Assembly: GCA_951813535.1 (NCBI GenBank) | Contig: OX638345.1 | Span: forward strand, 4,022,608-4,086,607 | DNA: 64,000 nt | Reading direction: 5' to 3' | Origin: an uncultured Dehalococcoidia bacterium | Lineage (GTDB): Bacteria; Chloroflexota; Dehalococcoidia; Lucifugimonadales; UBA3495 | In this document: positions 40,161-52,716 of the stretch, in pieces | How positions within the stretch are numbered: the stretch's first letter is position 1 | Layout of the letters: each line of letters begins with the position of its first letter | The notes under the pieces: model-generated | Seen by the model: only the letters and a program-made list of their open reading frames with translations | Told to the model about the DNA's origin: nothing | The model's database searches: none | Position numbers and translations under genes: made by a program

Positions 40161-40171
40161 TGCGGCTCAGG

Positions 40172-47683: not shown

Positions 47684-47724
47684 ACTCATGGATGCGGGTA
47701 GGGCCATGCGCCCGCTGAGGCCTA

Positions 47725-48357
47725 TTGGTGCCTATTACGCTCAGGTTATACATCCTCGCCGGGACTCTGGTCGTAATCATAATTGCGACGGTCGCGTTAT
47801 CGGCCATCCCATCGTCCCAGAGCAGCACAGCGGCGCCGTTGACCTGCCCTTCGTTGCCGGAGAACGACGCGCTGGCGCGAGATGCCCAATTTTACGCAGC
47901 GGATTTCGGGGTCAGCGTCGAGGAAGCCATATGCCGGTTGATGATCCAGGACGAAATTGGCCCCTTGGGTCGCGCGATCAGATCCGGAGAACCCGAAACC
48001 TTTGCCGGATTGTGGATCCAGCACAAACCCGCATTCGGAGTGAACGTTTTGTTCACCAAAAACCCGCAAGCCACCCTGGCGCCTTATGTGAAGGACAGTC
48101 CCCTGGCGGGCATCATCCAAGCGCGCAAGGCCAAAGTGTCGCTGCGAAACCTGAATCAGGCCCAGGGCCAGGCCCACGCGGTCGCCGACGCCGCCGGCAT
48201 TCCGGCCGAATCGGGCATCAACGTCCCCGAAAATCGAGTGGAACTGTACGTGATGGACACCAGGGGTTTCACCAAGGCGCTCAGGGCCGCCGGGTTGCGG
48301 CTTCCCGATCACGTCAAGCTGATCCAGGTCGAGCAACACAGCTCACCAGCATCATGA
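47725..48357 (+). CDS. secreted or membrane-anchored protein of unknown function
   Basis: 210 residues from TTG 47725, or one less from the GTG next to it. A hydrophobic segment at about 8-28 is a signal peptide or anchor. The rest is soluble, with FGVSVEEAICRLMIQDEIGPLGRAI and VELYVMDTRGFTKALRAAGLRLPDHVKLIQVE. The latter resembles the pro-region that precedes chymotrypsin-like proteases in some Chloroflexota proteins, but no protease domain follows. Fifty bases downstream begins the DUF3179 lipoprotein, which is also exported. Family not certain. Confidence 0.6.
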   Translation: MVPITLRLYILAGTLVVIIIATVALSAIPSSQSSTAAPLTCPSLPENDALARDAQFYAADFGVSVEEAICRLMIQDEIGPLGRAIRSGEPETFAGLWIQHKPAFGVNVLFTKNPQATLAPYVKDSPLAGIIQARKAKVSLRNLNQAQGQAHAVADAAGIPAESGINVPENRVELYVMDTRGFTKALRAAGLRLPDHVKLIQVEQHSSPAS

Positions 48358-48406
48358 ACGCATCCCAGGCTCACGGCTTCAATCCGACATCTGCCCACGG
48401 CCTCGG

Positions 48407-49981
48407 GTGCTGCATAGGGTACTTCAGTTGATCAAAACGATCATTTACCTGCTGCTGTTGGTCGGTTTGCTCTCCGTGGCCTGCGCCCGCCAGGCGCCTC
48501 CGCAACCGGATGACCCCGCCTTAACTCTGCCGCCGCTCGCGCCAACCCGGGAACCGACGGCAACTGTCGCGGTTTCCACGGTCGAGCCGACAGCTTCCGG
48601 TCCGGCCCCGGTCGCTGAACCTACCGCTGTGACATACGACTCCAACCGTACCATGTTCGGCATCTGGCACGGTCTGGACCACCCTTCGGAGACGACACTC
48701 GCCGCGCTGGCGGACACGGAGGAGTACGGCGACAAGTCCCAGGTCGTGGTCATCCTTGAGGCGCTCAAGTTCTTCCGAAATCGGGATACGCTGCAACAGG
48801 GAATAGACACCCTGACGGCCCTCACCGGCCAGCACTTCGATTTTGACCGCCGTCTGTGGCGGGAGTGGATCGGTCCCCGCATGGACGAATATGCCCCTCC
48901 GTCCGAGTATCCCCGCTGGAAGGTGGACTCGCTTGCGCTGATCGACCCCGCCATCGGCGCGATCCTGGAACCGGGCATCACTCGCTCGCGGGTCGACCTC
49001 ACCGAGGTGGTCTGGGGCGGCGTGCGCCTGGACGGCATCCCACCGCTGGAGCAGGCTCCTCACATCCTGGCCGAGCAGGCGACCTGGCTGTGGCCCGGCG
49101 ATCGGGTCTTTGGCGTGTCCATCAACGGGGAGCACCGCGCGTATCCGCTGCGAGTGATGAATGCCCATGAGCTGGCCAACGACGTGCTGGGCGGCGAACC
49201 GATCTCGCTGGTGTATTGAACGCTGTGCGGCACCGGAATCGTGTATTCCGGCATCGTGAACGGCGAAGCGACCACTTTTGGCACCTCCGGTCTGCTTTAC
49301 CGCAGCAACAAGGTGATGTACGACCGCGCCACCCGGTCATTGTGGAACCAGTTCATCGGCGAACCGGTCATCGGGCCCCTGGCCGATTCGGGCATCAGGC
49401 AGCCATTCTTCCCATCGGTGGTGACCACCTGGGAAGAATGGTTGGAGGAACATCCGGACACCACGGTGCTGGATCGGAACACTGGCATCTACCCTCCCGA
49501 TTTCTACGTCCCCGAGAATGACCCGCGCGCAATCTATTACGACTATTTCACCTCGGACGAGGTGATGTTCCCGGTGTGGAATCGGGATGTCACGTTCGAC
49601 CCGAAAGAAGTGGTCGTGGGATTGTCCATCGCAGACAGTACCAAGGCCTACCGGGTGGCTGACCTGCAGGAAGTGCGGTTGATCAACGATACTCTGGGCG
49701 GTCTTAACGTGGTCGTCGTCGCGTCGCCCGACTCCAGGGCCGGCCGCATCTACGAGCGAGGTGACGCCACATTTGCCCTGCCGCCAACCGACGAACCGGA
49801 TGTCCCGCCGTCCGCCCTGGTTGACGAATCCGGCGCCGCTTGGCAAGTCACGGAGACCGGACTGGTCAATCAGTCCGATCCATCGGAGGTTTTGCCTCGC
49901 ATCCCCAGCCTGACCTCATTCTGGTTTGGATGGTTCCAGTACCACCCCGACACCGAGGTCTATCAGCCGGCCGCACAGTGA
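48407..49981 (+). CDS. DUF3179 lipoprotein with in-frame TGA: candidate selenoprotein
   Basis: 524 codons in one frame, start GTG 48407 (TTG 48428 possible). A hydrophobic leader and lipobox LLSVAC predict an outer-face lipoprotein; a Pro/Thr-rich linker follows. The DUF3179 domain runs from about residue 240 to the end: FGVSINGEHRAYPLRVMNAHELANDVLGG, ISLVY-(TGA)-TLCGTGIVYSG, TFGTSGLLYRSNKVMYDR and SLWNQFIGEPVIGPLA. The single TGA (49217-49219) stands exactly where the family has the first Cys of CxxC, giving UxxC, and a hairpin follows. The frame continues for 254 codons of perfect domain match. The other reading is a nonsense mutation that makes two fragments, 48407-49219 and 49241-49981. 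DUF3179 function is unknown. Confidence 0.75.
49233..49251 (+). promoter_or_regulatory. candidate bacterial SECIS stem-loop
   Basis: Starting 14 bases after the TGA, CCGGAAT (49233-49239) pairs perfectly with ATTCCGG (49245-49251) around the loop CGTGT. The loop is 20 bases from the TGA and has G as its second base. A short stem, small loop, G in the first two loop positions and this distance match the known consensus of bacterial SECIS elements. The stem also has to code for CGTGIVYSG, so some pairing could be chance. Confidence 0.5.
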
Positions 49982-50080: not shown

Positions 50081-50170
50081 GGAGAGGTGCCAGAGTGGAC
50101 GAATGGGCGCGACTGGAAATCGCGTAGGGGTTAACGCCTCTCGCGGGTTCGAATCCCGCCCTCTCCGCCA
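50081..50170 (+). tRNA. tRNA-Ser (anticodon GGA)
   Basis: Acceptor GGAGAGG/CCTCTCC with discriminator G and encoded CCA (50168-50170). Anticodon stem CGCGA/TCGCG with loop CTGGAAA gives anticodon GGA at 50115-50117. A long variable arm and GGTTCGAATCC make a class II tRNA. Insertion-sequence remnants and a SIR2-HerA module follow downstream, as is common at tRNA-Ser integration sites. Confidence 0.94.

Positions 50171-50759: not shown

Positions 50760-52716
<1,957 letters not shown>

Follow-up and report, generated by a model that had tools for sequence, protein, structure and literature searches.

Comparative evidence for selenocysteine decoding of an in-frame UGA in a DUF3179 gene of SAR202-type Chloroflexota

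Introduction

DUF3179 has already been given as a selenoprotein family with the motif UxxC/T, and its selenoproteins were credited to a study of Olavius algarvensis symbionts (PMC9312934; PMC13188914). At NCBI, members go by the name "DUF3179 domain-containing (seleno)protein". SAR202-type Chloroflexota are not named in the 2026 review (PMC13188914). The gene described here, located in a window of 64,000 nucleotides (the whole stretch of DNA analysed) from such a genome, is a new member of this recorded family. It shares with the listed DUF3179 selenoproteins the Pfam domain and a selenocysteine (Sec) at the first position of UxxC, and its U-T-L-C motif fits the UxxC/T pattern, with Sec first and Cys three residues on. 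It differs from them in carrying UTLC instead of the commoner UPLC, in its N-terminal anchor and helical domain, and in its SAR202-type host.

One further protein and one further family were compared. Halocatena marina WP_248910129.1, which bears this NCBI name, has a similar long architecture (the match covers query residues 134-520) but is encoded by one uninterrupted archaeal gene at about 30% identity. The Rcas_1661 thioredoxin-like UxxC family (NF041057) is alike in its redox selenolipoprotein-like N-terminus; membership in that family was rejected, as the score was 13 bits against an NCBIfam cut-off of 190 and covered the leader region only.

Results

The gene was contained in a plus-strand frame at 48407-49981, in which the TGA at 49217-49219 was the sole interruption. 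The first-pass annotation had described a frame of 524 codons, open save for this TGA; the frame stood, and the length was revised to 517 codons. In orthologs L088-L091 the conserved start was TTG at 48428, 21 bases downstream of the start first given, and a Shine-Dalgarno-like AGG upstream of this TTG was kept in all four. The gene therefore runs from 48428 to 49981 on the plus strand, ends with a TGA stop, and has the putative Sec as codon 264. The DUF3179 assignment was confirmed by PF11376, which matched residues 209-516 of the 525-residue translation across the TGA (E 1.2e-73; 248.5 bits against a Pfam gathering cut-off of 27) and over model positions 2-292 of 292.

Behind a short anchor and a disordered linker, the encoded protein had a helical domain and two DUF3179 repeats. 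The translation of 48428-48508 contained a predicted helix at residues 2-15 followed by disorder, which points to a membrane anchor or signal peptide, and a lipobox-like LSVAC. As LSVAC is no textbook lipobox, the earlier description as a lipoprotein is no more than likely. The helical, repeat-like domain (model residues 67-186; 48626-48985) had alpha-repeat proteins among the structural matches of its AlphaFold model, and had no Pfam match. The first DUF3179 repeat (49031-49480) carried the UxxC motif, and the second (model residues 402-507; 49631-49948) had the same fold in the model without the Cys/Sec pair. The two repeats were detectably similar in a BLASTP comparison of the halves (E 1e-7), with UxxC confined to the first. 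The TGA occupied the first Cys of the DUF3179 CxxC motif and the second Cys (49226-49228) was retained, as had been noted earlier; this second Cys was invariant in 54 of 54 aligned proteins.

The neighbouring genes encoded a TPP enzyme, a membrane-anchored protein, and a tautomerase-like protein, next to which lay a small unassigned ORF. The membrane-anchored protein was the upstream neighbour (47725-48357, plus strand), to which no function is assigned; it was 66-71% identical to the proteins encoded beside the orthologs in L088-L091, whereas the overlapping ORF at 47688-48431 was less conserved (41-46%). Downstream lay a tRNA-Ser (50081-50170), then two adjacent minus-strand transposase ORFs of DDE group 1 and IS110 type (50760-51599 and 51646-52716). 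When the window was scanned for read-through of the UxxC/CxxU type, five other weak hits were found besides the DUF3179 gene. The minus strand at 40169 held a perfect inverted repeat of 13 bp (TGCCGGGACGACG...CGTCGTCCCGGCA) directly past a TGA; it is probably a terminator or repeat, not a SECIS.

The genome containing the window (SAR202/Dehalococcoidia-type Chloroflexota; 4.38 Mb, single contig, 99.8% complete) encoded the complete Sec machinery. Searching it for selA, selB, selC, and selD, which had been proposed as a check on the candidate, recovered all four: SelA (542 bits), SelB (354.8 bits), SelD (370 bits), and a tRNA-Sec with anticodon TCA. The SelD gene (own genome C1:1105770-1106690, minus strand) itself has a TGA, in the context HCAG-U-AAK, and is a selenoprotein candidate; the U of HCAGUAAK stands at the catalytic position of SelD. 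Across the order, SelA was over the cut-off in 170 of 197 sampled genomes. By hand count, 63 of the 68 genomes with a TGA-bearing DUF3179 gene had a strong SelA, and the five in which clear SelA was missing were 60-88% complete. This co-occurrence is consistent with Sec decoding, weakly so because SelA is present in the majority of the order's genomes.

We then compared the TGA column across homologues. Every ortholog found in the genus carried TGA at the identical codon, and TGA stood in the same column in most of the family-level homologues fetched and in many further DUF3179 proteins from this order. Where records were named, these relatives were MAGs of SAR202, Dehalococcoidia or Chloroflexota. 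The site was TGC or TGT in 30 DUF3179 proteins from another clade, and DUF3179 proteins of other clades read either CPLC (TGC/TGT) or UPLC (TGA). Cys and TGA thus alternated in this column, which answers the earlier proposal to align homologues and look for such an exchange. The distribution of the Sec and Cys forms needed at least three changes on a tree built without the site. One Cys form, ortholog L096, which comes from a SAR202 MAG of the open ocean, had TGC at the site (LAYCVLCGTG) and was nested within the Sec clade. Its genome retained SelA, indicating that the switch between Sec and Cys arose in a Sec-using lineage. The TGA-bearing homologue L127 was kept out of the Sec forms, since it had Cys at the site and its TGA elsewhere.

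Three DUF3179 genes were present in the genome containing the window, two bearing TGA and one encoding CPLC. The second TGA-bearing gene (own genome C1:1145089-1146033, minus strand) likewise had its TGA in this column, together with a hairpin of its own (CCGCCT/AGGCGG) whose register was slightly shifted. In OX638324.1, the ortholog was preceded, at a distance of about 3.6 kb, by part of a second DUF3179 copy (L095 5-388).

The perfect 7-bp hairpin with loop CGTGT, described earlier as lying 14 bases past the TGA, was found exactly so. Bases 49233-49239 (CCGGAAT) paired with 49245-49251 (ATTCCGG) through seven Watson-Crick pairs, the loop occupied 49240-49244, and the first stem base was 14 nt after the TGA. 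Judged on its own sequence alone, the hairpin was only suggestive of a SECIS: an equally good one arose in 262 of 20,000 synonymous recodings of this gene alone (1.3%). With a single-gene chance of about 1%, the case for a SECIS rests on comparison. Watson-Crick stems of 5-9 bp were present at the site in 69 of 78 Sec sequences, and the stem was 3 bp or shorter in 32 of 32 Cys sequences, the compared sequences in these counts being kin and not independent events. Paired cells amounted to 87% among 70 distinct Sec sequences versus 42% in the Cys forms, and to 27-51% in the Sec sequences when the partner was slid out of register. Six of the seven stem pairs showed two-sided changes among the Sec forms, with stems such as CCGGAAT/ATTCCGG, CGGGCAT/ATGCCCG, and CTGGAAT/ATTCCAG interchanging. 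Within the genus, synonymous divergence was 0.04 in the SECIS codons versus 0.37 upstream, and the sole change in these codons, GGA to GGG, preserved a G-U pair. An Rfam search with the hairpin returned no matching family. Its fixed position, its covariation in the Sec forms, and its absence from the Cys forms identify the hairpin at 49233-49251, by comparative sequence analysis, as the SECIS. The compensatory changes, kept in the Sec forms only, thereby bore out its earlier designation.

Selection on the protein was measured against four orthologs of about 87% identity. The N-terminal part had a dN/dS of 0.11-0.16; the stretch of the DUF3179 domain up to the TGA had 0.05-0.06, and the sequence past the TGA 0.07-0.10. 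The low values past the TGA, a sign of strong purifying selection, indicated that the downstream part was translated and selected, and agreed with the earlier remark that this half shows no decay.

Structural models were used to consider the possible function. The AlphaFold models were confident, with pLDDT values of 90 and 94. With the first repeat alone, the best 50 VIA-align rows were all Rieske-domain proteins (Z up to 8.7), the ferredoxin rows aligning 91-98 of about 105 residues at an rmsd of about 2.5-3.3. Foldseek also ranked the Rieske group top for this repeat, though only at E 0.06, and the model of the second repeat matched a Rieske domain as well (Z 7.0). The whole-protein model gave no significant Foldseek match, and no sequence relative of the protein was found in the PDB. 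Rieske [2Fe-2S] domains (NirD and dioxygenase ferredoxins) may thus be alike in predicted fold, but they had no sequence match to DUF3179, and their CxH...CxxH ligands were absent from it: among the 54 aligned proteins, the only conserved Cys positions were 264 (Sec) and 267, and the only conserved His was 247. A correspondence of CPLC with the Rieske ligand motif CPLH was considered and rejected, as in the range-level structural alignment the Sec hairpin appeared to precede the CxH loop of the Rieske domains. We tentatively suggest, at somewhat less than even confidence, that two tandem copies of a Rieske-like fold, both lacking [2Fe-2S] ligands, make up DUF3179, and that the Cys/Sec-x-x-Cys of the first copy would sit on a beta-hairpin. 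In the TTG-start protein, the duplication so modelled spans residues 202-517 (49031-49978). In a separate observation, the DUF3179 domain model (49031-49480) matched the uncharacterised Indivirus ILV1 protein A0A1V0SD44 in Foldseek (E 1.5e-5, TM 0.68), followed by a Hokovirus HKV1 protein (E 0.02).

Discussion

Taken together, the UGA at 49217-49219 is almost certainly decoded as Sec, which would yield a full-length, membrane-anchored DUF3179 protein whose Sec-x-x-Cys pair is most likely redox active. From the complete machinery and the comparative evidence, we infer the following steps. SelA and SelD would provide the Sec-tRNA, and SelB with Sec-tRNA bound would recognise the SECIS hairpin, which lies within the coding sequence 14-32 nt past the UGA. 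The UGA would then be read as Sec and the full-length anchored protein made. In the predicted Rieske-like fold, the Sec-x-x-Cys pair would form a site that, as our hypothesis from the model, most likely performs selenol/thiol redox chemistry outside the cytoplasm.

Viewed in one genome only, a lone TGA within an open frame might suggest that the gene is decaying after a nonsense mutation or has been misread through a sequencing error. The same TGA nevertheless recurred in independent assemblies at 44-87% identity, which excludes a read error, and the sharing of the TGA by orthologs upholds the earlier judgement that it was not a chance nonsense mutation. Moreover, the constraint downstream of the TGA and the frozen SECIS codons were at odds with decay, and among about 74 matches listed for the order the interrupting stop was TGA throughout, save for one TAA; TAG did not occur (hand count). 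We consider this explanation extremely improbable. Genome-wide reassignment of UGA (to Trp or Cys, for instance), or its suppression without Sec, appears equally remote. Several genes did have an in-frame TGA, but TGA was also the commonest ordinary stop, ending 18 of the window's 28 long ORFs, which shows that the code is not reassigned; in addition, tRNA-Sec, SelA, SelB, SelD, and the SECIS were all in place.

Slightly less remote, yet still very unlikely, is that the TGA is a true stop which separates a short protein ending at residue 263 from a second protein starting at GTG 49241. The ORF at 49241-49981 does have this GTG start, and some termination at the UGA is likely, because Sec insertion in E. 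coli is leaky. Against two separate products, the domain, the fold, and the conserved UTLC motif all cross the stop, and the Cys homologues are one uninterrupted protein. Sec decoding of the UGA thus remained the reading that we strongly favour.

If the structural reading is true, DUF3179 would represent an extracytoplasmic thiol/selenol oxidoreductase family built on a Rieske-like scaffold, in contrast to the many UxxC selenoproteins that have a thioredoxin-like fold, and the model offers a testable idea on the function of DUF3179. For SAR202-type Chloroflexota, recognition of the Sec codon restores genes that would be cut in two at the TGA by standard annotation. As Sec forms of DUF3179 are common in these bacteria and SelA is present in most of the sampled genomes, the selenium use of this lineage may be under-counted.
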